Of a DNA stretch of 64,000 nucleotides, positions 17,511 through 63,960 are shown piece after piece. The first letter of the stretch is position 1, and each line of letters opens with the position of its first letter. A program made the translations under genes and the position numbers. The notes below the pieces were generated by a model. The model worked only from the letters and a program-made list of their open reading frames with translations, was not told the DNA's origin and ran no database searches. Location of the stretch: positions 1,327,367 to 1,391,366 of the forward strand of contig FN649737.1 of assembly GCA_000310025.1 (NCBI GenBank). The letters are read 5' to 3'. Origin of the DNA: Ectocarpus siliculosus. Taxonomy: Eukaryota; Sar; Phaeophyceae; Ectocarpales; Ectocarpaceae.

Positions 17511-18110
17511 GAGGGGGGGGGGGGGGGGGGGACAATTTTTGGGGGGGGGGAAATTTAAAGAAATTTAGGGGGCCCTGAAAAAAACCGGCCCCCCCCCAAA
17601 AACGGCACAAGGGAAACCGACCGCGGGGGGGGAGGGCCAAAAAGGGGGGATTTAAAAAAAATTTTGCCAGAATAACCCCATTTCCAAATTTGGGGCCCCC
17701 CCCCACCCCCCCTTTAAAGTTTCAAATTTAATTGGGACCCCGCTGAAACTTTTCCGGCCAATGGGGGGCCCCCCAGGAAAGATTTAAAGGGGCCCAATTC
17801 CCCCAAAAGGGGGGGGAAAAAAAATTCCCGGGGGGGGGTTTTAAAAAGCGGGGGCGGGAAAAACCCGGGGGTACCCCAAATAAAAGCCTTTGAGGAAAAC
17901 CCCCTTTTTCCCGGGGGGGGAAAAAACAAAAAGCCCCCCCCCAATCCCCTTTCCCAAAATTTCCCCCCCCTAAAGGGGNNNNNNNNNNNNNNNNNNNNNN
18001 NNNNNNNNNNNNNNNNNNNNNNNNNNNNNNNNNNNNNNNNNNNNNNNNNNNNNNNNNNNNNNNNNNNNNNNNNNNNNNGGGGGGGGGGGGGGGGGGGGGG
18101 ACAATTCATG
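17505..18110. other. low-quality poly-G/poly-A block with 100-base assembly gap
   Basis: The sequence is dominated by runs of G, C, A and T in doublet patterns (GGGCCC, AAATTT) that look like homopolymer-inflated or error-laden reads rather than biology. N bases fill 17979-18078. Reading frames here should be disregarded. Confidence 0.85.
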
Positions 18111-41240: not shown

Positions 41241-44200
41241 CGCTCTCCCGTCAACAGCAGCAACAGCCGTCTTCAGGAGGGGGACGAGGCTCCGGGGGGG
41301 CATCGTCCACCAACTTTCACCAACGCCATGTCGGAGGTAGGGCTGTTTTTTCCGGGGAATCCCAGGGGCAGGCCGCTCCGACGCCTTTTCTGCCGCCCGA
41401 CCCGTTCCCGTCCGCTACCACTCCCCCCGCATCTTTTCCAGCGCCGTCTGAGGGTGTGGGGGTGCCACCAGGCCCTGAGGGGCCATTCATGCCGGCGTTT
41501 CGTGGAGTTCAGCCTGAAGGTTTGTCTGGGTTTGATTCTGAAGGTATCGCGGTTGATTCGCAGGAAAAATGGTGCCAAGTGAGCTTGTCGGTGCTCAACA
41601 TGCAGGCCGTGTGGGCCAGCGCCGCGATGGCGACTCCGAAGAAAGGGGGATACCGGCTGGTGAGTGACTTTCGTCCGGCAAACAAGCAAGTAGAGAAGGT
41701 GCCTGGTGTGATGCCGAACCCTGAAGCCAGTATGGCTCAGCTCAGTGCGGCCAAGTTCTATGGGAGCTTGGACCTCTTGCAAGGGTATTGGCAGTGCCCG
41801 TTGGCTCCGGAGGCGCAGGAAATTATCACGATTGCTACGCCGGGCGGCCTCTACAGGCCCAAGAGGGTACCGCAAGGTATTTTGAACGCCACGTCGTATT
41901 TCCAGGCCACCCTTACGCGCATCTTGGACGGGCTGAATTTCTTCGTCTGGGTAGACGATGTCGTGTATTGGGGGATGGATGAAGACGACTTGCTTGACAC
42001 CCTTGACTTGATTCTGGGTTGTCTGGAGGGGGCTGGCCTTTACGTGGCCGCCCACAAGTGCACATTCTTTGAGACCAGCATCACTTGGTGCGGGAAGGTG
42101 TACTCGGAGGGTCGGGTCGAGCACGATCCCGAGCGGCTCAGCGGGTTGGCTACAATGCGGCGTCCTGAGACGGCTGGCGGGCTGATGCAGTTCCTGCAGG
42201 CGGTAAAGTGGCTGCGCACGTCTCTGCCGCGGATGGCGGAGGTTGTGTGGCCGCTTCGCATGTTTCTGGAGCAGCATTTGGTTGGTGCCAAGAGCCGGAC
42301 GAAGCGCGTGGCCGAGAATCGCGCGATGGCTGAGGATGCGTGGACACGCCCGCGCTCGTCGAAGCGTGGACTGCCGCGCAAGACCTTGTTGCCCGTGCTG
42401 TTGCCCTGTCTCACCCTCGCCCAGGTTGCGCCGTCCTCATGTTTCCCGATGCATCCGATGAGCATTGGGGGAGCTTTCTCACGCAAGTGCCCCAACACCA
42501 GCTGGATCGTGGCGTTCCTGTGGAGGATATGGCTCATGAACCGATGGGGTTTCTGAGCGGCACTTTCAAGGGCGCGCAGCAGCGGTGGGCCACGGTGGAC
42601 AAGGAAGGGTACGCGATTGTGAGTACGTTCAAGCGGTTGGAGTATTTGCTTTGGGATGGCGTGCACATTTTCACCGACCACCGTAATCTCGCGTACATCT
42701 TCGACCCGGAGGCTTGCGTGTCTGCCGTAGCGAAAACCACGGCTCAGCGCCTGGACCAGTGGAAAGCTGTCTTGGGCCAGTACGATTACACCATCAGGCA
42801 CATTTCGGGTGAGCGCAATTGCTGGGGGGACTTTCTGTCGCGGTGGGTCTCTGTGCCGTCGGTGAGTGTTCGCGCTGCCGCGGTTCACGCCCCCAGCGAA
42901 CCTCATGCCGCCATGCCGTCGAAGCAAGTAGTATGTGATGCACAACAAGCGGCGTGGAGTAAGCTCGGCGCGCTTGCCGGGCCTGCCACGTCATTTTCGA
43001 CGGCGGTGGGGACGGCGACTCTGGATGACGAGGGATTGTTTCGCGTGGGCATGAACGGGCGAGACGTGCTTTGGATTCCAGATCAGGCGAGTGCGTTGCA
43101 GGTGCGACTGATGGTCTGTGCACACATGAAAGAAGCCGGGCATCGTGGCGCCGTCGCCACCTTGCAGCGCCTATCCGAGCACTGTTGCTGGTTTCGGATG
43201 GAAGAGCATGTCACTGACTTCGTCAAGCAGTGCCTGCATTGCATGGACTCTAAGGCGAGAGAAAAGGTGCCTCGCCCGCTTGGACCGACCGTCCATGGCA
43301 CGCGCCCTGGCGAAGTTGTTCATTTTGACTACCTCTACGTGGGAGCGAGTGGCCCGCTGGGGGATGATGGCTTGGAAGAGGGTTCAAGTACATTTTGGTC
43401 ATGATGGACGACATGTCCAACTGGGTTTGGCTGGAGCCCACCGGGGCATGCACTGCCCGCCTGACTGCGCAACATCTCATGACGTGGTGTAAGATCTTGG
43501 GTGTGCCGGAGGTTTGGGTGAGTGATACCGCTTCCCATTTCAAAAGTCACATGATGGCTGCCCTTGAGACTGCACTCGGTGTTGACCGGAAATTTTCAGT
43601 CGCCAACTCTCCCTGGTCTAACGGTACGTGCGAGCGCATGATGCGCGAGGTGGTTCGTACGCTCAAGGCCATGGTTCAGGAAGAGTGGAGGAGTACTCGT
43701 GACTGGCTTGATCTGGTACCAGCTGTGGAATAGGCGTTGAACACCGCTTTCCGCGAACGATACGGCTCGACGCCGTACCACGTCATGTTTGGTAGAGCGC
43801 CACGCACCGCGCTTTCCACTTTGGCGTCGTCCACAGGCGCCGAATGGAAGGTAGACGTCCTGGATGAGAAGTCTTTGCGGCTGAAGGTGCAGCACGTTGT
43901 CGAGGCCCAACGTCACCTGCACAAGGAAGTTCTCGACAAGGTGCAGGCGAGTCGGAGTAAGCACCGGGCGTCTGCGCGAGTTGGGAGCCTGCCTGACTTC
44001 GTGGTGGGGGACTACGTGTTGGTGGCGCGTGTTCGCCGGCATGGTTCGACACCGAAACTTCTCATGACGTGGACAGGGCCGTGGAGGATTGTCGCCGCCG
44101 GGAGACTGCATGTGTACGGAGTTCAGAACATCGTGTCGGGGGAAGTTCGGGACGTCCATGTCGCGCGTTTGCGGTTCTACGCCGATGCCGCTCTCGAAAT

Positions 44201-45195
44201 CACCGTCGAGTTGAAGGAACTCTTTCAGCACGTTTCACGCAGGGGGAGTTCGAGATGGCGGCGATCGTGGACATGTCGGTGGGGGAAGATGGCCCTGGGT
44301 TCGACGTGGAAGTAGAGTGGGTCGGAATCGACAAGGAAGAGAACACCTGGGAAGAGTTGTCCAACGTTTGGGATGCCGCGCCGCAGTTCGTCAAATCCGA
44401 GCTGCGGCGGCTGGATCTGCCGAATAAGGTTCGGGCTCAGTTGAAGCAGCAATACGGCATGCCCTGTGATTATTTGTTTGAGTTGAGTGAGGGCTATCTT
44501 GTCGAGCTTTGATAGCATTTCTTCGCTGCCTGTTTCTGTACATTCTTTAGCTCGCCGCGCATTTATGTTGTGGCATGCCTGTCTTTTGCATGTGATTGAA
44601 CTGCGTGGAGGCCGCCTTATGACAGCGTGTTGGTGGTATTTCTTCGCGAGCTACGTACGTTTGTCTAATTTCGCAACATTGGCTTGTTCAACGATCATGC
44701 CGATCGTTTCGCCATATTTGGTATTTCGAGATATTTCAACTCAACCCTGGAAGCGCCTCGTAACAGTCTTCAGCGTTGCCTCTGGGTTGTTGTTTTTTCA
44801 TCATTTTCCTTGCGTGTGGCAACTTTGCCCATTTCGCGTTGTTTGCGGTGTGTTGGTCGCGTAAGTTTCTCTGTACGCGTATCTACCGGACTTTGTGTGG
44901 TCGTCCGCCACGTGCTTGTTTGTCGTTTGAAGCGTCGAGGTCCTTCACTGTTGAATGTGGGCATTCTACGGTTCGCATGGGAGGTTGAACACTTGCGCTG
45001 ACTGACGAATTGGTGTGGCATGATTTAGTCAGGCATGATATCGCCGTGCGGATGCTTATCATTCACAAACACCGCTGTCGTTTTCTTCTTGAGTACAACC
45101 AGGTGCCTACTGCTGTTTGAGTTCAAGGTGATTAGTGTCTACTCCGGTAGTAATAAGCTTTGGGGTCATCATCGACTGACCTGATATGAGGTATA

Positions 45196-45468
45196 TGTGG
45201 ACGCAGCGCACCTGGGTAGCAGTAGTTCACGGTGGGAAGCTGCCGTTGGATATGTATGCATGCCAAAGATATGGTAGATTGGGGTTTCTGTCTGCCTGGT
45301 TGGCATGTTGGCAGGAAAGAGAATGAGATGGAGAGAGAGAGACGATACTCGTGTGCAATAATAATACACTGTGTTTATCATCACCAAGGAGGTGAATTGA
45401 CCACCCCCCCGAGGCCACGGGAGGAGGATACTGGTCCTAGGCCCTGCCTGACTTCAGGCGTGTCTACA
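45196..45468 (+). repeat. 3' LTR of gypsy copy B
   Basis: 273 bp, TGTGGACGCAG at the start and GGCGTGTCTACA at the end; it defines the uninterrupted LTR length. Confidence 0.9.
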
Positions 45469-45553
45469 TACCCTCCGGGCTGTCGGGGTGTAGAGTGGTA
45501 GGACGACCATGGAAGTGTCAGTCTGACCCAGGAAAGCCGACCAGATGAGGTGG

Positions 45554-46500
45554 CTAAACTCGTCCTCGAAGGGGAGTCGGAGATGTGCGGGGCGTCGGTG
45601 GACGGGCTTGATGTCGGCAGCCACTACTCGGCGTTGTCGAATGCGTCGCCCGTTGAGTTGCACCGTAAAGCGCAGCCGACATGGCTGCGTGGCGGGCGAC
45701 CAAATAGTATCGGATACGGCAAGGCCCATCCCGGCAGGGCCGGGTCGGGCGTAACCCGGTGGATTCAGGTCGCCACAGGAACGTAGTCCTCCCACAGCTT
45801 GGGCCATGCCTTGCACAGGGAGGGAGAGGGCTTCCTGTAGCTAACCCCCATCCGTTCCACCGCCTCCTGAGCTCTGGGGTGCTTAACGGGGCCGTAGTCC
45901 AAGCCCACTTCCTCCAGCGGCACGGGCATGACAAGACGTAAGCTCGGAAGCCCCGCTTTAGCGCTGGGCAGTGAAACTTTCTCTCGATCAGCAGGGTCGT
46001 TCGTGCAGGTTCCGGATGCCCGTAGATCCTCTGGATCAATGCCAACACTCCTGGCACTAACCGAAGTGGAACGGCGATCGCGTACGTCCCTCCCCGCGGT
46101 GCGGGCCACAGCAGGTGGTCGTCCGTGAGTACGTAGTCGGTGTCGTCGCCACGACCTTCCTCGAGCATGGCTCGGGTAGGCCTCAGGGTCCGGTCCCGTT
46201 TCTGTGCCTCCGAAAGCTGTGCCGAGTCCCGAAGGACGATCTCCATCCGCTCCAAGTTCGTGGAAAGTCCTCGGCGTAGTTCTGGTGTGTCCAGCCGTTC
46301 GTGGTCTCCATCGTGACCCTCTGGGGCCCCCGGTGGGTCCTCCGTGGTCTACGGTGGCGAGGTTCGTACCGGTGTCGTGACCGGCTCCTCCGCCTCGCGT
46401 TCCTCCCGGGACCAAAGGCAAACAAACTAGGGAATGCCACCGAATAACATGACGTCCAAAAGGTTTTTTTGAGAAACGCACGATTTTCAACTCGGGAGTA
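45554..46500 (-). mobile_element. fossil LTR-retroelement fragment (integrase side)
   Basis: A minus-strand stretch at about 46000-46160 reads as an integrase zinc-binding (H2C2) domain, including IYGHPEPARTTLLIERKFHC, in the style of retroelement Pol proteins. No intact core domain or LTR is identified, and the region is broken. It is unrelated in sequence to gypsy copies A and B. Confidence 0.55.
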
Positions 46501-47003
46501 GTGGTTCGTCCAACTTGAACCACAAAGAAAGTCAAAGAAGCGCGTGTCACCATTCGCTAAAATATAACACACCACCACCACATCCTTCGGAAGGCCGCTG
46601 CTCATGCGCCTCCGTGATTGGTCGATAATTGATCGATGTTTCGCTGGCGAACAAAAAACCTTCAAACCCAAGATTGACTGGGCATCGGCCTGTTGTCGGG
46701 AAGAACAACTAGTTATTGTAGACACGCAAGGCCTATGCTATTGTCAGAGACCATGCCAGCCCCTATCCGGTGGGGGCTGGCGGCCTCAGTACCCCGCAGG
46801 GATCACTGTTATGGTGTATAGATAGATTAGGAGATATAGTGAAAAGTATCCCATGAGGGGTCACACAGCAAGTAACACCAGGATATCCCCTATCTCACCG
46901 TAAAACCCTAACGGTCAGATCCTCATGGTCCAGGTCAATCATACCCCAGTAGGTGGCATATGTCTACAATCCCCTGTCGCGAGGATTGCGCGGATCGGCG
47001 AGC
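46501..47003. other. possible non-coding part of the fossil retroelement
   Basis: A GC-rich dyad around AGCCCCTATCCGGTGGGGGCT (46755-46775) and a run of short polypurine or polypyrimidine blocks are seen. It could be leader or LTR sequence of the fragment on its left, but no repeat partner is found in the window. Confidence 0.25.
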
Positions 47004-50889: not shown

Positions 50890-51687
50890 CAAAGAAATAC
50901 AACTTAGGTCTCCGTACAGCTTAGGTCTCCGTGAGTCGTCACGTCCGCGAACCGAGAGCGAAGACAAGCGGTGAGAGTTTAAGGCTCTTGAAGGGGGGCA
51001 AAAGTGAAACATTCGGGAAACAATGCCAATGCATTTGGCTTTGATTGGATCAAAGGCAATCATGGTATCAAGCTTCCCTCTCCGTGTAGCAAATTGCCCG
51101 GTCCGCACAACAACACAACCGTAGAGCGGGATGGGAGATTGGTGGTCTGATGTATCATTAGTGGGACGTGTGAGCCCTTTTGAATTTTGTCGTTTGTGGA
51201 GATTTGCCGATGTTGACGCGTACCTCGGACTTTGAGAATGCAAGACGTTGTATATGTATACTCATTGAAGCGTCGCGAAAGCGGTTCGAGATGACGGGTG
51301 CGAGGGAGCAATGAGCAGACTTGCACAACCAACCACAATTATTTTCCTTCGTGTTTAGACTATGTCGTTTTGTTCCTGTGTCCGACTGTCTGTGTCTTCT
51401 CGCTTGTGGCTGCTCACACAATAATTTCGTTTGGTCTCCAAACGTGACAACGCGATCAGAGACAACGTTGTGACACGGTGCGGAGACCGTCACACTCAGA
51501 AGCGGAAGGAAGCTTTGTCCGTTGTCAGCATTATACATGCATGCCTGGATGCGCCACAATGTTGCTCGAAAGCTTTCAAACCCACACTACTCGTTCGCGT
51601 CCTGTCTGGCCCACGAGTTTTTTTTCATTCAAACATTGTATATTTAATTTCAGTTTTTTTTTTAGTCTAATATTATTGTAACACAAT

Positions 51688-52804
51688 TCAATTCGTGTGA
51701 ATTCTACCCCCCTCCCTCGTACAATCACCCACCCACTCCCTGCAATGACGGTCTTCAATCCCCTCTACCCTAATAACTGAACTCTTACGCTGCAACGCTG
51801 GCGATAAATGACCGACAACGACCCCGACCCACCCTACCAAATCCAAGTCGTGTCCTTTGAATACCCGATAGGAAATCGCGGCATGTAAAACTTTGAGATC
51901 ACCAAACACGCGTCGATCACCATCCGCCGGCAATAGTTTTCTAGCGGCGATGTTGGCTGACTTGCTGTAACGTTGGTTTATCTGTGCGGCAGTGAGACAG
52001 CAGGTATCTTTTATGTCGCGCAACCTCTTGAGACCTTCGATGAAGTGGTCATACTCGCACAACAAGAGGAGCCGGGTCAAAGTTCCCATCTTAACCTCTG
52101 CCTCGTAGGGGCAACGCGTGCTTGATGAAAAAGTCAGCGTTCCCGGCAATCTCCGCTAGACCCCTGCCGGACACAAACGACAACGCGCAAGCAAGTTCAA
52201 AGTAATTCGGGCGTGTGTATCTGATGATGGACTCCATGGTGTCGATCAGATCACTCGCGTGCACCGTTAGTCCACGTCTGCACTTGACCTCCAAGGACTC
52301 CCGGCGTTTTATTCTCGGAATGCTCTTCTCCTCCGGCGTGAGCTCTAATCGGGAAACGTAGGGCGGTAGCAAGCGCACCTTCCTAAGGAGGTCGTCAATA
52401 TCGGCGAGTCCAGTGAAAGACACCTTCCGCGAGTGTATCGCGCGCCGGGCCGACCACTTTCCGGGAAGGTCTAATTTCCCGAATGACACAACGCGATCCC
52501 AGGCCGTCTGTAGCTGTTTCAGGTATCCCTTCCGCCCCTTCGTCTTCTTTGCCGTGGATGACCTTTTCTTGATAAGGACGAGCAATTGCCGGATTTCTGT
52601 CTTGACAGGACCTGCATTGTGTCGGGCGCCGAACGTTTGCATCCAAACTTCCCGAACCCTTCTGACGTTCTTGTTTAAGGAGGAGCCAGGGTGCAGCTTC
52701 CTCAGAACATCCAAAACCTCTCGTGGATTCTCGTGTTCTTCTAGCCATTTGGCGCACATCGATATCTTTTGGTCCATGTTGAACACTGCTACTGACAAAA
52801 ACAC
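51688..52804 (-). pseudogene. telomere-resolvase (protelomerase)-like region
   Basis: Telomere resolvases cut and rejoin a palindromic site to give covalently closed hairpin ends; they are known from linear phage-plasmids (N15, PY54, phiKO2), Borrelia ResT and Agrobacterium TelA. The N-terminal part is basic and helical. A central segment, ALSFVSGRGLAEIAGNADFF, matches the first catalytic-arginine region of the family. A following segment has the pattern LRDIKDTCCLTAAQINQRYS, like the conserved linker before the second half of the active site, and then a VGH motif. The coding potential is spread over more than one frame, so it is broken or spliced; I treat it as a fossil and have not verified all active-site residues. 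It lies 56 bp downstream of, and on the same strand as, the polymerase-helicase gene. A generic tyrosine recombinase is the main alternative. Confidence 0.55.
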
Positions 52805-52860
52805 ATTATTTCCTGTACTTTGTTCAAGATAGGGCTACCTCTCCTCCTTCCCACTATCAT

Positions 52861-55800
52861 CTACCTTTTTCTTTTTCGTCCTCTCCCCAGGCTACCACGA
52901 GCGCGATTGCACCTCAAGCACTTAACGTCCACATTTCCGATCGTGTGAGGCAAAGCACAGTCAAGACGGTCGAGAGTCGGTTGGCGTTCACTGTAAATGG
53001 CCCAGACAAGTTCATGGTCGCACAGATTGCACCTCCCCCCAAAGGAGCGGTGAAGTTCTTCGACAAGAGCTTCCCTATGCTGCACACCCTTGTTTGGTTC
53101 AAGACGGCCTGCCGTTACATCGGCATAGATATAGCTCGAGACCTTCCTAGAAACCCACGACAACCTCTCTCGGTCGGACATGTTGCTCTCGCTGCGGTGA
53201 ATGTCGTCGACGACCACCATGTTCGAGGGTCCGGTCGCTCGACTTACAGCCGTGTACAGCCAGTGGACGTCAGCGTAAAAGTGCCGCGCCTGATGTATGA
53301 TCAACCTCCCTTCCACTGTACGGCCTTGGACAGCGTGCACGGTACATGCTCCTGGGGGATCGAACAAATTTTCTGCCTCCGCTCGACAGAGTGAAGTTTC
53401 CTCAAGACTAGCACCATCGTCAAATGCACTTGCGACAACGACCTCATCTGCCGATGATCGGATGACATTGTACATGTGGTTCTTGTGTATCTTGCCCGGG
53501 TTCCCGAGGTCCCTGTATTGTGCACCGACAACCGTCTGACACTCCAGCCCATCCCAGCCACCGAGTTCGTTGCACCCCAACAAACCTCGGAAGGCATGGA
53601 ATCGAGCGCATTCTCTTGTGTACGCGAGGTGAAAATCTGACGGGCTATGGTGATAAGTCGAGCGCCTGCATCCAAACCTCTCGATAGCTCTTGTCTGTGC
53701 CATGTGACGGTCGTCTCCCGCGCCGAGAATATACAAGAGGCCATCGTCCATCTCCACTTGTTCTTCGATAGTTTTATCCCGCTTGCGCGCGAAGAGATGG
53801 AAGCAGGTGGGGAAAGCCCTTTCGAGGACGATCCTCCTGTCCACATTGTCCCTACTTGTCGACATACCGCTACTGTCCTCAACCGGTTGGAGTTGGTGCG
53901 TGTCGTATGTCCCGATCACGTGGGTGCCGCTGCAATGGGCAGCAGCCAATATCATGCTTAGTGTCCGGAGAGGCATATACGCAGCTTCTTCAATGATGAT
54001 CACGTCAACCTTGAGCGTTCGTATCGACCCGGCCGTTTTCTTCACGTGAGAATCATCCCCCAGATAGAAACCGAGCTGGTGGTCGGCGGTCTTTACACTC
54101 CACCCACGTGGCATGTCTGTGAAGGACGTTCTCAAACTATTGGTGGGGGTTACGACAAGCCCAGTTTTGAACATGGCCGTTGCAGCACGGGTTGCGCAGT
54201 AACTCTTCCCCGCTCCCCCATGCTCCCCGGTCACCGCGCAAACGATCCTTTGCTCCTCGAACTTCAGCGCACGTAGTAGTCGTTCAAGGGTTGCTGGTGA
54301 CTCCGTCTCGCACACCTCCGGCCAAACCTGTAGTTTTTGGTCTTTGGTGAGAGAAAGCCAGGCTCTGTGGGTGTCATCCATGGATGGGAAGCTCGTCCCA
54401 ATGCCATCCCAAAGCGGAACCACCCGTAGGACCCGTTTAGGCGGGCATGGGATTTGCCTTAGAGCGGGCGGTAACGCACTCAGGGATAGTTTGGTTTGGA
54501 TGCCATGGAAGACGCGACTCTCGGAGGTCTGTGGATTCTTCAACGCTGGGCAAAACTTGAGCGTTCCGGGAGTATTGAGCTCACCACTGAACAGATGGCC
54601 AAAGCGGAGCCTCATTTCATCCTGGACTGCGGGAGATCCCTTGAAGAATACCGCGTCACATTGGTAGCTAAAGTCTGATGCGCCGCAGGATTCAAGAGCA
54701 TTCTGTACCCCCGACACACGCAGTCGAGTTTGGTCGAGAATTTCTTCACCCAAGGCCCAGAAGCCGTCTCTGAACCAAGTTCGTTTCGCTTCGAAGCAAA
54801 GGTAAGCGTCCCCGGTAGCGAGTGGTTCGAAGACCAGCTCTTTGTGGCCTGTGCGTAGGCCGGCCTTTACATGTTGGACTTCACCGAGGACCGGTACGAC
54901 CTTTGCACCCACAGCTAAGGCCTCGTCACTGCCCGTAACCATGACAGCATCGATCCTGTCCGCATATCTCTGCTGCAACATTCCACTGGTCCGCACGAAC
55001 ATCCCTTTCTTAAATTTGCGAGCGCTTTCGGCGCCCTCCAGGAGGGGGTCCCCAAGCTCCCGTGTGAGCAGCTCTCTGGCCACGTAAGGTATGTGGCATC
55101 TTTCGACCGTCCTTGCCGGCCTCACAAAGTGGGTCACTCGATGGCGAACACATCTGCGAGTTTGCTGAATGTACCGTTTGTAGTTCCGACCCGTGATTGG
55201 GGTCACGTCAGCGTTAAGATACACGTCAGGGTCCCCTGTGTCATCCAGCCGAACGACGTAAAGCGTCGAATCCTCGATTTCGTGGTCATCGTACTCCTGC
55301 ACTTCGTCCATGTGGGCGAACACCGACACCGTATCCATGCTCAAAAGGGCCGCCGTGTGTGCCCCGTTGATGTCGCACTGCCAGTCTTCCGGCCCGTACG
55401 AAGTCCCAGACGCTTGCTCGGCGCCTACGATTGGTCCGCGCCAGCATATCTCGAGAAGGGCGAGGAGGGACTGGCTGTACTGGCTCGAAACTCTAAAGTC
55501 CATGACACGACGATAAAACTGCTGACCCAACGCGTTTTGCAGCTCAATCAACCGGGTAGCCTCACCGGGCCGAAAGTCGTTCGGGTCCAACCCGCCCATG
55601 CTTGCGGCGCACCACGTTCGGATAGTGATGCCAAGTGAGGGTAAGGTGAGGGAGTCCCAATGGCTGTAGTTGGTAAGTTTCCCCCTGCATGAGATTCCGC
55701 GAACGTGCAGGTGGAGCATCAATTCGTCGAGAGCAGTTCCCGGAGGCGAATACCACGTCGTGAATTCTGATGCGTCTGTTCCTCGCTTCCGCTTCTGCGC

Positions 55801-57255
55801 CGACCTCGGGTCGTGATCCTTGTCTAATCGACTCATGGACATGATCTCTTTTTCGATGTCCGCAACACGCAAAAAAGTCCTGCTTCCACACCCAGTGGTG
55901 TCCACTTCCTCTTCCTCTTCGACAGCCTCGGCAACCCGACGGAATCTTCGCTGGGTTCTAACACTGTGCTCGATGGCCACGTCCAAGGATGATCCAAACC
56001 GGTCCCTCCATGGCCCGTCGACCTCCAATCGGTATACGTGTCCCTCGCGAACCCCAACGTGTAATGCTGGCGGCCGGAGATTTGTTTTTTCGTCGACTGG
56101 CCCAAGAACATTGTCGCCGGAGCCCCTGTGTGACCACACGACGACGATCGCCTTGGTCATACTTAGCCACTGCTCGAGGTTTCGCAAGGTGAGCGGTGGC
56201 GGTTCACTTACCCCCGCAAGCCACGTATCGAACTCTTCGCTCCCCACGTCTCGACCCAGAAGCACTGAATACAGGTTGCGGAAGTAGTTGTCACCATCCA
56301 ACGCATTCCTCAGCGGTTCAGTGGCACCCTCCCTTCGCCGTCCACCACCGGTCGAGATCGTGAATGATCCCGTTACAGGGTCGACATCCCTAAAGCCAAA
56401 TCTCCGTCGATCTCGTTTCAAAAGTTCGACTTGACAGTCTCGCCAGGTGTCCGCAACGAGCACAGCGAGGCAAGCACCAGGGAGTCGTTTCTTCCATGTC
56501 ATGCCGAACGTGGTCAGAGGTTCGTATCTCACAACCCTGTCACCAAAGGACGCGATGTTGAGTTGTCTGAAGCTAGGGCTTGGCGAGTCGATACCGGCGC
56601 GGACCTGGAGGTTCGACAAGGAAGCCGGGATGCCTTCATGATCGACCTCGATTCTTCTGCCCGCCGATCCCCAGCAGAGGATCGCTCGCCAGGTGTCATC
56701 CGCCGCTGAGACTACGAGCTGCCCGCGGCCACCGCCCTCGACGTCGATAAAAGCGGTCTTCCATGCATCGGCATCCCTCGGGTGGACCAGGCCGCGTCGC
56801 CACTTCCTTCTTGCCCAGGACTGGAAATTTTCCAGTGACGGATCACCTCCAACTGGATGCGAATTGAACCATCTATATCCCGGTCCATGGGACGAGGCCG
56901 AGATACGAACCCGGTATCCTGCACCGAAGACCGCCTGGCGACGATACATAACCCCTCGCGGGCCTACATAGCGCCACCCATTGCTCCTGTTTGCCAGGGG
57001 TTCGGCTTGATCCACTTGCTCCATGTAGCACCATCTGTATCCTGGCTGTTGTTGGGATGATGACCTAGTCGTCGGTGCTGCAAGTATTTTTTTGAGGTGG
57101 TGCAACATTTCTGTGTTTTGTATATCTAATTGTAAGACACAAAATTTATCTGCGGATTGGGGCGAATCGTCAACCACGGTGCTTGTTACTCCGGATTTGT
57201 AGAAGTGTGAGCGAAAGTGGGTACTGTTTGGAAGTAGGGAGATATCCAAATCCAA
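52861..57255 (-). CDS. polymerase-like / SF1 helicase / HNH fusion protein (1,464 aa)
   Basis: One uninterrupted frame, apparently whole. Residues 1-500 are unassigned, with repeated GYRW/GWRY motifs (72, 93, 126) and an acidic stretch at 445-451. A family-B-polymerase-like palm is suggested by WQCDINGAHTAALL (625-638, motif A position) and YQCDAVFFKG (864-873, motif C position). No clear exonuclease or motif B is seen, so this is tentative. The helicase part is clear: Walker A GEHGGAGKS (1010-1018), Walker B VIIIEEA (1085-1091), motif III GTYDTHQLQPV (1115-1125), and motifs V/VI TVHAVQGR and YTAVSRA (1305-1340). The C-terminus is an HNH-like finger, CNLC (1409-1412), DRLD...PHTIGN, CLRCN (1446-1450), then a basic tail. 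It likely acts in self-replication of a mobile replicon. Absence of introns and tight spacing to the resolvase-like region are unlike the host gene. Confidence 0.8.
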   Translation of the reverse strand: MDLDISLLPNSTHFRSHFYKSGVTSTVVDDSPQSADKFCVLQLDIQNTEMLHHLKKILAAPTTRSSSQQQPGYRWCYMEQVDQAEPLANRSNGWRYVGPRGVMYRRQAVFGAGYRVRISASSHGPGYRWFNSHPVGGDPSLENFQSWARRKWRRGLVHPRDADAWKTAFIDVEGGGRGQLVVSAADDTWRAILCWGSAGRRIEVDHEGIPASLSNLQVRAGIDSPSPSFRQLNIASFGDRVVRYEPLTTFGMTWKKRLPGACLAVLVADTWRDCQVELLKRDRRRFGFRDVDPVTGSFTISTGGGRRREGATEPLRNALDGDNYFRNLYSVLLGRDVGSEEFDTWLAGVSEPPPLTLRNLEQWLSMTKAIVVVWSHRGSGDNVLGPVDEKTNLRPPALHVGVREGHVYRLEVDGPWRDRFGSSLDVAIEHSVRTQRRFRRVAEAVEEEEEVDTTGCGSRTFLRVADIEKEIMSMSRLDKDHDPRSAQKRKRGTDASEFTTWYSPPGTALDELMLHLHVRGISCRGKLTNYSHWDSLTLPSLGITIRTWCAASMGGLDPNDFRPGEATRLIELQNALGQQFYRRVMDFRVSSQYSQSLLALLEICWRGPIVGAEQASGTSYGPEDWQCDINGAHTAALLSMDTVSVFAHMDEVQEYDDHEIEDSTLYVVRLDDTGDPDVYLNADVTPITGRNYKRYIQQTRRCVRHRVTHFVRPARTVERCHIPYVARELLTRELGDPLLEGAESARKFKKGMFVRTSGMLQQRYADRIDAVMVTGSDEALAVGAKVVPVLGEVQHVKAGLRTGHKELVFEPLATGDAYLCFEAKRTWFRDGFWALGEEILDQTRLRVSGVQNALESCGASDFSYQCDAVFFKGSPAVQDEMRLRFGHLFSGELNTPGTLKFCPALKNPQTSESRVFHGIQTKLSLSALPPALRQIPCPPKRVLRVVPLWDGIGTSFPSMDDTHRAWLSLTKDQKLQVWPEVCETESPATLERLLRALKFEEQRIVCAVTGEHGGAGKSYCATRAATAMFKTGLVVTPTNSLRTSFTDMPRGWSVKTADHQLGFYLGDDSHVKKTAGSIRTLKVDVIIIEEAAYMPLRTLSMILAAAHCSGTHVIGTYDTHQLQPVEDSSGMSTSRDNVDRRIVLERAFPTCFHLFARKRDKTIEEQVEMDDGLLYILGAGDDRHMAQTRAIERFGCRRSTYHHSPSDFHLAYTRECARFHAFRGLLGCNELGGWDGLECQTVVGAQYRDLGNPGKIHKNHMYNVIRSSADEVVVASAFDDGASLEETSLCRAEAENLFDPPGACTVHAVQGRTVEGRLIIHQARHFYADVHWLYTAVSRATGPSNMVVVDDIHRSESNMSDRERLSWVSRKVSSYIYADVTAGRLEPNKGVQHREALVEELHRSFGGRCNLCDHELVWAIYSERQPTLDRLDCALPHTIGNVDVKCLRCNRARGSLGRGRKRKR

Positions 57256-57309
57256 CTTTCAGTTTTCGCCTTCTCCTGGTTGGCCCGCCGAATAGCAATC
57301 TATATGTGA

Positions 57310-58010
57310 CGTGAGTAAGGAGATCTTGTGATCGGTATTTTGTCACTTCTCCTTCATAACTGCTGCTATAATAGTAATCATTATCGAAGTCAGCAGGCTA
57401 CGAGCTGATGTGACATGAAATTCATCAATCATCAGTCACCCACGGCGAATTTGAATTTTTCGAGATTTCACGAGAAGTGACGTCACAACCGTGGCTGACG
57501 TCATCGGTCGACCATGGAATTTTCGACCAAAGGAAATTTCCTGTCTAAAAAATTGGCCAATCAGAAAACTGCGGGCACCTTTTCTCTCTCTCAATCACAT
57601 AATGAAGAAGGTTGGGAGGACACGGACACAGCAGATCGCACACATGTTGAAGTTTTTCCTGTGATGCCGCAATAATGGAGCCTAGCCTACCCATTCCATC
57701 CAACACCTCTTAGCCTTGAGGAGACCTTGCGATCGGTGTTTTGTCACCCCTGCTCCATTGTTGACTGAGAGTCCTTCCTTGTTTGGTTGGGTGATTCCCG
57801 AGAGGGCGTGTGTGACTACTGCTGCTGTGCTGGGATCATCAATCAGTCATCCACGGCCAAAATTCAAAATTTTGAATTTCGCCGAAAGGCGACTTCTCGA
57901 CCGTGGGTGATGTCCTTGGACGACCAGGGATTTTTGCCCTTTCTTTGGAACGGTCCTTAAAAAAATTGGCCAATCAATTAATTGCGGGCACCTTTTCTCT
58001 CTCTAGTGCA
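57310..58010. promoter_or_regulatory. two diverged ~290-bp direct repeats with palindromes
   Basis: Unit 1 (about 57310-57600) and unit 2 (about 57712-58010) share, in order, AAGGAGATCTTGTGATCGGT-like sequence, ATCATCAATCAGTCA, a CCACGG...CCGTGG inverted pair with outer span of 55-56 bp, a GGTCGACC-like core, AATTGGCCAATCA and GCGGGCACCTTTTCTCTCTC. Unit 2 contains the perfect 20-bp palindrome AAATTCAAAATTTTGAATTT (57860-57879); unit 1 has GTGACGTCAC instead. The repeats lie directly upstream of the polymerase-helicase gene, so they may be promoter, origin or terminal sequence. CCAAT-box-like sequence is present in both. Confidence 0.7.
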
Positions 58011-59470: not shown

Positions 59471-60233
59471 GAGCAGTGGCCAAAATCGGGTACACCCGGT
59501 CAGAACACGGCCATAATCGGGTACCCCTGCTAGACGCTGCTGGGAGCGACCGCATGCCACCATCTGATTGGCCGGCACCCGGCCCTACCTGGCCTTGGCC
59601 GTCTTTCCACCGGGTGCACCCGATCTTGGCTACTCACCCCCCGGAGGGATACCCGGTTTTTCTTTCCCCTACCCGAAAATGGCTGGGCTGTTCGACCAAA
59701 ACCCATGCACACAATCACGGGTCGGACGCACACCACTGGCCCTCGTTTGTCACCAATGAGCAAGTAGCGGGAGGGAGAGAATATGTCGCATCTCTAAATG
59801 AGTCCCCGTGTGTGTAGCATCTCGTGAGGGAGGGATTCATCCAACTCTTCTTCTCGATCATTTGCACAGACAGACCGCCAGCCGTTTCCCCCAAGGGAGA
59901 CTTCCACCGCCGGCGGAGGGTCTGCCTCCGCCCGGCGGGCCGTCAGAACGTCCGAATTTTCGAGGGCAGGGCGTTGCTGACGTGTACTTGTGGGCATGGG
60001 TTTTGGTCGAACAGCCCAGCCATTTTCGGGTAGGGGAAAGAAAGACCGGGTACCCCTCCGGGGGGTGAGTAGCCAAGATCGGGTGCACTCGGTGGAAAGA
60101 CGGCCAAGGCCGGGTAGGGGCGGGCGCCGACCAATCAGATGGCGGCATGCGGTCGCTCCCAGCAGCGTCTTGTAGGGCTTTATCCGATTATGGCCGTGTT
60201 CTGACCGGGTGTACCCGATTTTGGCCACTGCTC
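59471..60233. mobile_element. second foldback element
   Basis: Arms 59471-59708 and 59991-60233 are inverted repeats of about 240 bp around a 280-bp loop. They start GAGCAGTGGCCAAAATCGGG. The arms carry recurring GGCCAAAATCGGGTAC, GGCCATAATCGGGTACC and CGGGTRCACCCG motifs. Poly-A tracts flank both ends (CCAAAAAAAA left, CAAAAAATC right), so the target duplication is ambiguous. There is no coding part. Confidence 0.75.
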
Positions 60234-62225: not shown

Positions 62226-63960
62226 TTATCTTCTCCAGGCCTTCCGCCAAGCTGAGCCCTTTATTTGCTCTAGGTCGCGCACTCTTTTCACCAGCATCTG
62301 CCTTAGGAGGTCAATGTTTATTCCGTTCGAATGCTTCACCCCTCGTCTACGAAGTGCCTCTCCGCACGGCTTCTTCTTCATGCTCAGTATCTCAGCTTCG
62401 GACAACACAGGTTCGTCAAGGGGGTCCACCGACAATGCTTGCCACGCCCCTCCCCCCCCTCCCCCCNNNNNNNNNNNNNNNNNNNNNNNNNNNNNNNNNN
62501 NNNNNNNNNNNNNNNNNNNNNNNNNNNNNNNNNNNNNNNNNNNNNNNNNNNNNNNNNNNNNNNNNNCTCCCCCTCCTCCCCATCCTCCCCCCCCCCTTCC
62601 CCCGCCCCGCCCCCCTCTTTCTATTCTGCCTCTTCGTCCTCCGTGGAGATGTCCCCCCTCCCGTGGCAACCTCTCCGCGCTGCAAGCGCCGTGCAGCTGT
62701 CCATAGACACCCTTGGCTTGGCTCTCCCAGAATTGCGACATCTGTGTCCCTCTGATGACCCCGTGTAACTGTTGCACATGCTGCAAAGTCGCCCCACTAC
62801 CCCCATGTCCCCTGCCTTGCTCTTGTGCGATGGCCACGTTCCGAACCACCACCTCGTTGTACAGGCGCGCAGCCTCCGCAGCCACTTCTGGCGCCATCAT
62901 GTGCCGTTGTGAACTTGCTACCGCTGCCGCTTGACAGGAAGCGGCGAGGTTGAGCTCGTCAGTTGTGCGGATTGGTGGGGTCTTACGGTTGGTCGGGGAC
63001 GTGGGATTTTACGTGCGAATTTTGCCGCAATGGGCTCGCTTATTTCCTACCACACCCCCGGAGGCAGTGGTGACGCGGCCTGGCCGATGCCTGTTTCCTT
63101 CGGCGACGCCACCTTCCACGGAGACATCGACGTTGGATTGCAACGGGCCGAAGGGGGGCAACCAACCGGTGCTGGTGAGAAGTCTGGAACAGAGTGTAGA
63201 GTGTCGACATACCGACAGACATACCGACAAAACACAACGGCTGCATGGAAAACAACGAAAAGGATGTACGTGCCACCAAACGTTCGCCAAGATAAAATAT
63301 GCCGAGATAAGCTCGAGGAGAAAGGGAGAATGCTTGATTTCGGGCCATCCGTTTTCAGACACCTACTTCTTCTACTACTTGGCGTTTGTTCGCACCTGTC
63401 CGTCGCCCCCCCTGGTCTGCTGTCCTCCTTTGCCTCAAGTCACCTTGCCGCAATCCATCGGCTTCTGGCACCCCACTTTGTAGACTACCCGCCCCATACT
63501 GCATCGCTCCCCCCCCCACCGACCCTGTTGCAGTGGGTCCGACACCCCCGGCACTGGCACCACGCACGGCAGCATCAAGTGCTGCTAGCCTAGCTGCCGC
63601 GCCTGGGCGAGTAGGAGCGGACAACGTGCTTCGACTCTCAGTCGCACAAGAGTCCGGCCTTCTTCTCAAGAGCTCGCTGCCCGGTGTGATGCTCGAGTGT
63701 GTTGTCGGGACGCTACGCATCGCACCACTGGCGGCAGAATCTCCGCGCGTCGAACCTCCTACACCCCTTGACTGCTGGCTGCCACGTACAGAGGCTCCGG
63801 GTACTCCGTCTCGCGCCGCCCAGCTACCGCGATCTGCGAGATAGTGGGTGCAACAGCGGAATCGGATTGTAGGGAATGTAGGGCACACGTAGGTAGGGTG
63901 ACACGTAGGTAGAGCACCACCTGTGGACAGCACAGGAAGGCTGAACTTCGGGGTGTGGAG
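62226..63960 (-). CDS. partial unidentified minus-strand gene with assembly gap
   Basis: Two minus-strand exon-like blocks are visible. The right one (about 63398-63850) codes a serine-, alanine- and glycine-rich stretch. The left one (about 62226-62935) starts after an AG-type acceptor, codes helical sequence (MMAPEVAAEAARLYNEVVV), passes through a glycine-rich segment interrupted by 100 N (62467-62566), and ends with the basic, helical LLRQMLVKRVRDLEQIKGS. I know no family match. The glycine-rich part may be inflated by poor assembly. Splice sites are tentative and the gene may extend beyond the window. Confidence 0.4.

Follow-up and report, generated by a model that had tools for sequence, protein, structure and literature searches.

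What kind of element places a large replicase-like gene, a telomere-resolvase-like gene and a set of repeats side by side in the genome of a brown alga? These parts all lie on the minus strand at positions 51688-58010 of a 64,000-nucleotide stretch of Ectocarpus siliculosus DNA (contig FN649737.1, positions 1,327,367 to 1,391,366; hereafter the window), and an earlier sequence-only reading had taken them for a linear replicon that closes its own ends as hairpins. The comparisons described here suggest a different answer. With moderate confidence, the locus is interpreted as a decayed copy of an autonomous brown-algal mobile element, bounded by terminal inverted repeats (TIRs), that would replicate in linear form from these TIRs by means of its own replicase and would have a catalytically dead telomere resolvase at its ends.

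The resolvase region of the window (51688-52804) is a single gene that a frameshift has split into two overlapping frames, the first at 52091..52804 and the second at 51688..52149, both on the minus strand. The first piece matched the Pfam profile ResT-TelK_cat (PF16684) with an E-value of 0.073 and the second matched no Pfam profile, the PHROG match of the pieces was weak (E 0.059), and PDB searches returned chance-level matches with no resolvase among them. A search with the first piece gave 25 relatives (E ≤ 0.1; 576 candidates); the five that bear an organism name are all from brown algae (Ectocarpus, Laminaria and Scytosiphon). Nine of the relatives in the database are full-length, with 355-373 amino acids (aa), and eight of these nine intact proteins match PF16684 with E-values of 5e-5 to 1.3e-3, all under the curated cut-off. 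A profile of the nine found ResT as its sole PDB match under E 1 (E 0.003), and hhalign, in a single pairwise comparison of the family profile with ten known protelomerases, gave a probability of 98.3% and an E-value of 2e-14 over 172 columns. PHROG 5272 was matched by all three element members tested (best E 2.3e-7), and a control identified this PHROG as the family of TelN. The tblastn matches of one member, P0041, to protelomerases (E 0.03 to 9) count as a hint only: two of its four matches in phage records at an E limit of 10 are protelomerases (E 2 and 9), and eight of the ten listed among 12 matches in plasmid records are annotated 'protelomerase family protein' (best E 0.03), the other two being a 'hypothetical protein' of the same extent and an unrelated protein. 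NCBIfam profiles gave nothing of use for two members, IMG/VR scans with the resolvase yielded no relative confirmed by tblastn, and no ordinary recombinase family was matched by the gene. Judged by these profile comparisons, the homology to telomere resolvases is secure. The protelomerase-like region of the sequence-only reading is real in its ancestry, but in the window it is one frameshifted gene with Ser in place of the catalytic Tyr.

Loss of key catalytic residues is common to the family members compared. Ten known enzymes were aligned jointly with 17 family members, namely nine database proteins and eight copies from the same genome, some of them near-alike. The catalytic set of TelN includes Arg275, Lys300, Arg383 and His416, positions that fit conserved columns of the known enzymes. 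Tyr425 is described as a catalytic residue of TelN (PMC12624138). Equivalents of R275, K300 and Y425 are present in all ten known enzymes and in none of the 17 element members, which carry Gly (14/17) or Ala (3/17) at the R275 position, a gap (12/17) or Glu (5/17) at the K300 position, and Ser (8/17) or Cys (9/17) at the Y425 position. In the second frame of the window copy, comparison with relatives places the Ser that replaces the catalytic Tyr within VVGHLSPALQRKS. The R383 position holds Arg in four members and Lys in 13, and H416 is kept in four; each of these two residues is present in just nine of the ten known enzymes in the same alignment. The sole recombinase-like gene of the element is one without a catalytic tyrosine.

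None of the eight resolvase copies from the Ectocarpus genome contains an internal stop. The ratio of nonsynonymous to synonymous substitution rates (dN/dS) is 0.08-0.37 in the 12 of 28 resolvase pairs for which it could be estimated, one of them with a dS of 3.9, the synonymous sites of the other 16 pairs being saturated; for the replicase it is 0.09-0.36 in all ten pairs of five copies. Since the residue loss is common to subgroups with saturated synonymous sites, it is old. The gene encodes a resolvase homologue that is devoid of key catalytic residues, yet is maintained by selection. Because R275, K300 and Y425 are missing from every member compared and a complete relative exists elsewhere in the genome (see below), the ends are most likely not sealed as hairpins by the element itself. 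The long TIRs are as expected of the linear replicon that had been proposed, but R275, K300 and Y425, part of the catalytic set for hairpin closure, are absent in 17 of 17 members.

The replicase is encoded by a single open frame of 1464 aa (52861..57255, minus strand), without introns and with SF1 helicase and HNH domains, as the sequence-only reading had described. Profile and fold searches divide it into an N-terminus of no recognised family, a putative palm of a protein-primed-type family B DNA polymerase (PolB; 54250..55680), a superfamily 1 (SF1) helicase domain (53230..54255) and a C-terminal HNH/endonuclease VII-like domain (52891..53061). The helicase was assigned from Pfam (AAA_30, E 3e-5; UvrD_C_2, E 8e-4; both under the Pfam cut-offs) and PHROG (Dda-like helicase, E 1e-11) and the nuclease from PHROG (endonuclease VII, E 9e-4; HNH, E 0.007); NCBIfam returned weak partial helicase matches only, and PDB searches with the replicase sequence returned nothing useful. 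Three spaced motifs in the middle of the protein, DINGAH, KKG...SG and CDAVF, are what we take to be PolB motifs A, B and C. The AlphaFold model of the palm region has a mean predicted local distance difference test score (pLDDT) of 72 and a predicted template modelling score of 0.65. In the PDB, phi29 DNA polymerase accounts for all eight of its best Foldseek matches (E 1.6e-4 to 2e-3, probability 1.00), and the best named matches in a viral library are DNA polymerases, including those of bidnavirus-like viruses, a tectivirus, phage GA-1 and His1; bat adenoviruses rank lower in this list, and the two top viral matches are nameless. The modelled fold suggests a protein-primed-type palm resembling that of phi29-type polymerases, which would be followed by the SF1 helicase in one protein in which no exonuclease was recognised.

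A search with residues 550-1464 of the replicase gave 34 relatives in the database (E ≤ 0.001; 7,996 candidates scored). Ectocarpus, Pylaiella, Hapterophycus, Heterococcus and Tribonema are among the named sources, and metagenomes contribute some of the relatives; the partial protein from Hapterophycus canaliculatus has 97% identity to the window replicase across 67% of these residues. No relative confirmed by tblastn came from IMG/VR scans with the replicase.

Both genes recur together in the genome, which was searched as 492 contigs totalling 189 Mb (labelled C plus a number below). Since these searches scored only the best candidates, all copy numbers are lower bounds. The replicase has at least 51 matches (32 of 59 candidates scored), grouped into 20 places, six of which, the window included, hold near full-length, stop-free replicases. 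A resolvase match lies directly downstream of the replicase at 13 of the 20 places, with a gap of ~60-100 bp between the two matches in the ten copies measured. In the Ectocarpus gene models P0001 and P0009, too, the replicase continues into the resolvase, which shows conservation of the neighbourhood between species, and the gene pair that the sequence-only reading had singled out is a recurrent one. Neither of the outcomes that this reading had named as refuting it was observed.

Homology between copies has an abrupt start where the repeat has its outer edge: the 12 left ends examined have the TIR in common and the flanking DNA not, and a GA tract opens 11 of them, the exception being C271. 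With 171 bp of the repeat as query, at least 45 matches were found (40 of 121 candidates scored). Oppositely oriented TIR matches bound five elements, at distances of 11.9, 12.3, 12.5-13.2, 15.6 and 16.2 kb. In C18, C54 and C9, where both ends were read, the TIRs are 93.7-97.8% identical over 539-701 alignment columns; in C3 and C6 the right end was placed by position only, and the right halves of these 16-kb copies were partly read. The better-preserved copies are thus 12-16 kb long, with TIRs of 540-700 bp, a replicase of ~1,460 aa, a resolvase homologue that follows it and a cargo gene in convergent orientation.

The convergent gene downstream of the resolvase varies between copies. One cargo family occurs in C9 (4.23 Mb), C455 and C9 (6.06 Mb), a second in C54 and C18, fragments of which lie at two further places, and a third in C3, C6 and C9 (0.18 Mb). 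The long cargo frames that were scanned, with incomplete coverage of the 16-kb copies C3 and C6, yielded no significant match to Pfam or PHROG, and no capsid or packaging gene was recognised in them. C3 and C6 share an identical cargo stretch of 291 residues, but their left parts, mostly replicase, have 91% DNA identity, and their resolvases fall in different subgroups (89% and 57% identity to P0035), which indicates that modules have been exchanged between elements. A 2-kb pair of opposed TIR ends around a replicase N-terminal fragment (C26:2580214-2582182) probably derives from this element by internal deletion. In C9 (4231550-4231876, minus strand) the N-terminal stretch of the replicase is repeated near the right TIR in the opposite direction, and the replicase promoter may therefore be available to the cargo gene from the right arm.

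In the window, the repeats at ~57318-57592 and ~57719-58004 are 73% identical over 175 columns (E 3e-18). They represent a tandem of left TIR ends, two copies of a single sequence that have diverged. The inner TIR is that of the element itself; its outer 171 bp (57422..57592, minus strand) are up to 99% identical to the ends of other copies and are edged by a GA tract at 57584-57592. The second, outer end (57836..58004, minus strand) is a remnant nearer the C271/C455 type, with its GA tract at 57997-58004, also on the minus strand. A similar tandem of two left TIR ends, separated by replicase fragments, occurs at C455:164019-165623. Elements may insert at, or recombine through, one another's ends. 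Beyond the resolvase gene, homology to other copies persists through a 3' region (50993..51687, minus strand) and stops at ~50993, so neither a cargo gene nor a right TIR is left. With a frameshifted resolvase gene and no right half, the copy in the window is defunct and truncated. The palindrome-bearing direct repeats previously described are real repeats with dyads; they are, however, left TIR ends of an element that extends to ~50993.

Within the TIRs, a dyad motif, GTCANCCACGG / CCGTGGNTGAC with a spacing of 36-51 bp, is found at 13 of 16 ends with no more than one mismatch per arm. The inner TIR of the window contains GTCANCCACGG, a spacer and CCGTGGNTGA at 57435..57498, and the outer remnant has its dyad at 57846..57910; the three occurrences of the pattern in the window correspond to these two sites, one of them read on both strands, against a chance expectation of 0.00. 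The arms are conserved and the centres are variable, a pattern as for a protein-binding site. Folding of the repeats as single-stranded DNA gave weak z-scores (-0.5 to -2.3 in four stretches), and the argument for the dyad consequently draws on the conservation of the pattern rather than on folding energy.

These properties suggest how an intact element may operate. Copies of 12-16 kb would probably have a linear replicating form, with replication from the 540-700-bp TIRs, and the fused replicase, which combines a predicted protein-primed-type polymerase with SF1 helicase and HNH nuclease, would carry out this replication; the likeness of its palm to phi29-type protein-primed polymerases suggests a way of replicating the ends other than hairpin closure. 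The target would be opened by the HNH nuclease or another factor, with copies inserting at many unrelated places. The dead resolvase would most likely bind the conserved TIR dyad, marking or protecting the ends. The best analogy is provided by the TelN(Y425F) variant, which is reported to be incapable of telomere resolution, yet to bind hairpin ends and shield them from Mre11-Rad50 (PMC12624138).

This interpretation builds on the observed anatomy, homologies, residue loss, selection and mosaic copies; we infer from them the linear intermediate, the protein priming and the ligand and role of the dead resolvase. Several results weigh against it. In the three copies read at both ends, no target-site duplication of more than 2 bp was evident, and no integrase was recognised in the scanned cargo frames, which cover the 16-kb copies in part. 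The three ends of the C9 copy lack the right arm of the dyad at one mismatch or fewer, the left one having it at the expected place with two mismatches. The structure model of the resolvase is poor (pLDDT 58) and was not used for searching. The PolB domain assigned by the sequence-only reading is recovered as a phi29-like palm by fold, but PolB was not found in the replicase by any sequence profile and the Foldseek template modelling scores are low (0.32-0.40), with a high root-mean-square deviation of ~7 Å or more; the polymerase assignment is accordingly one by fold.

A distant telomere-resolvase relative also occurs in the same genome. A PF16684 search found two places, a C271 element copy (25.6 bits, below the cut-off) and C16:4529765-4530238 (60.4 bits, above it). 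The latter lies inside a 349-aa open frame, and the part of its protein that was read, 208 residues, shows R, K, R, H and Y in the five catalytic positions, the Y nine residues after the H. The C16 protein is 30% identical to P0035, and its best pairwise matches are element family members (34% identity, E 3e-13). A quick FastTree of catalytic domains groups it with bacterial and phage enzymes (support 0.63), outside the element family, for which reason descent from phaeoviruses is not claimed for the element resolvase. An IMG/VR scan with the C16 protein gave no confirmed relative. The only capsid match of nucleocytoplasmic large DNA viruses found in the genome (PF04451) lies ~91 kb away on the same contig, and the segment C16:4438430-4530238, which comprises this capsid gene and the catalytically complete resolvase, is a probable endogenous phaeovirus. 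Phaeoviruses EsV-1 and FsV-158 and the Ectocarpus endogenous viral elements (EVEs) studied are described as encoding a telomere resolvase, and EVEc as having a palindromic telRL-like site (PMC13236599). Taken with the distance to the capsid match, on which the assignment depends, this makes the C16 gene probably viral.

Could the element instead encode a working protelomerase and live as a hairpin-ended linear replicon? The protelomerase homology, the TIRs and their dyad would all suit such a life, and the complete C16 relative might act in trans. We nevertheless regard it as rather unlikely, since the equivalents of three catalytic residues are missing throughout the family, the palm model is of the protein-primed type, and dyad arms 36-51 bp apart around variable centres form no continuous palindrome of the kind found at a hairpin telomere junction. 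No TIR-TIR junction was seen among the ends examined. A link to giant viruses is unlikely too, though less so. The element may be a satellite or parasite of phaeoviruses, its dead resolvase serving as a decoy or inhibitor at viral telomere sites, or the viral enzyme being borrowed in trans. In a related form, to which we give the same low credence, the elements are giant-virus-associated satellites in which a phaeovirus-related resolvase became a non-catalytic end-binder that protects their own ends and competes at, or borrows, viral telomere resolution. The complete resolvase close to the sole capsid match is consistent with such a relationship, as are the conserved telomere resolvase of phaeoviruses and Ectocarpus EVEs and the telRL-like site described in one EVE (PMC13236599). 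Against it stand the position of the C16 protein in the tree, a viral origin of its gene that is judged from distance while IMG/VR gave no confirmed relative, and scanned cargo frames in which no capsid or packaging gene was recognised.

A polinton-like virus, packaged now or formerly with capsid genes that escaped recognition, is decidedly unlikely. The element's size, TIRs and fusion of a protein-primed PolB with an SF1 helicase resemble those reported for polinton-like viruses and Tlr1 (PMC12721341, PMC3671162, PMC10120064), and polinton-like viruses are described as roughly 14-40 kb. The present elements are likewise integrated with long TIRs, but at 12-16 kb three of the five measured copies fall just under that range; the 12-kb copies leave ~5 kb besides the TIRs, replicase and resolvase-like gene, and the scanned cargo frames, which cover the right halves of the 16-kb copies in part, gave no significant profile match. 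Finally, the window could be the remnant of an endogenous phaeovirus rather than a separate element. Phaeoviruses are described as carrying a telomere resolvase; TIR-bounded units with the same two genes nevertheless repeat at many sites, which makes this reading very improbable. An endogenous phaeovirus as the source of the window was itself rejected, the sole giant-virus capsid match found being on another contig (C16).

The element, in the favoured interpretation an autonomous TIR-bounded one, can be set beside several known systems. Crypton-type tyrosine-recombinase transposons have a related tyrosine-recombinase fold. From these and other tyrosine-recombinase transposons the element differs in its long TIRs, its self-encoded replicase and its lack of a catalytic tyrosine. 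Tlr1-type elements and transpovirons, for their part, have TIRs. The order in Tlr1 and transpovirons is published as polymerase, then SF1 helicase, and that in OmPLV as the reverse (PMC12721341; see also PMC3671162). The present replicase resembles the former two in having a palm, then a C-terminal SF1 helicase, with no exonuclease recognised (PMC12721341, PMC3671162), and Tlr1 of Tetrahymena is likewise described as having a nuclease within the same protein; the likeness is one of published architecture, not of direct sequence comparison. Differences are the HNH nuclease in place of GIY-YIG, the companion resolvase homologue, the brown-algal host and the lack of a recognised capsid gene. OmPLV of Oxyrrhis marina is described as having a polymerase-helicase fusion of ~1,500 aa, encoded by an element with TIRs that has integrated into the genome of a protist (PMC12721341), but it differs in its reversed domain order, full exonuclease, major capsid protein, packaging ATPase and size of ~25 kb. 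The protelomerases TelN, TelK and ResT (PF16684) share profile-level homology along the catalytic domain; the ten compared have 509-667 aa as against ~360 aa and retain the R275, K300 and Y425 that the element members lack. The resolvase of phaeoviruses (EsV-1, FsV-158 and EVEs) belongs to the same superfamily and occurs in the same hosts. Its comparison was made with the probable viral C16 copy, not with published phaeovirus sequences: the C16 copy is about as long and, like some of the family members, shows an LT..EIN..YS stretch and ends in WTF, but differs in its full catalytic set and an identity of ~30%.

In the literature searched, which included passages of an Ectocarpus transposable-element paper (PMC12477816) and of a review of brown-algal giant viruses (PMC12993054), with preprints and most subscription journals outside its scope, no published element with the pair of replicase and resolvase-like gene was found. 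The earlier statement that no described element has this set of genes agrees with that search as regards the pair, but not as regards the replicase, whose architecture resembles the Tlr1 and transpoviron fusions. What is joined here in one element is a Tlr1/transpoviron-like replicase and a telomere-resolvase fold, polinton-like and transpoviron-like TIR elements being already known. The family amounts to a natural experiment in which a DNA-end-forming enzyme would have become a pure end-binding protein, matching the laboratory result that TelN protects ends without catalysis. As the latent giant viruses of brown algae encode a telomere resolvase, the elements also allow satellite interference with, or use of, giant-virus telomeres to be tested. 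Most transposable element families in brown-algal genomes are said to remain unclassified (PMC12477816); boundaries and gene content are now given for one such repeat family.

In the window as a whole, an Rfam scan gave no match, and two assembly gaps of 100 N are present (17979-18078 and 62467-62566). Frames on both strands at 43596-46553 resemble, by eye, fragments of a Ty3/gypsy-type retroelement polyprotein. An inverted repeat of 246 bp (59471-59714 / 59988-60233), 94% identical between its arms and containing 39-bp sub-repeats, may be a small non-autonomous element.

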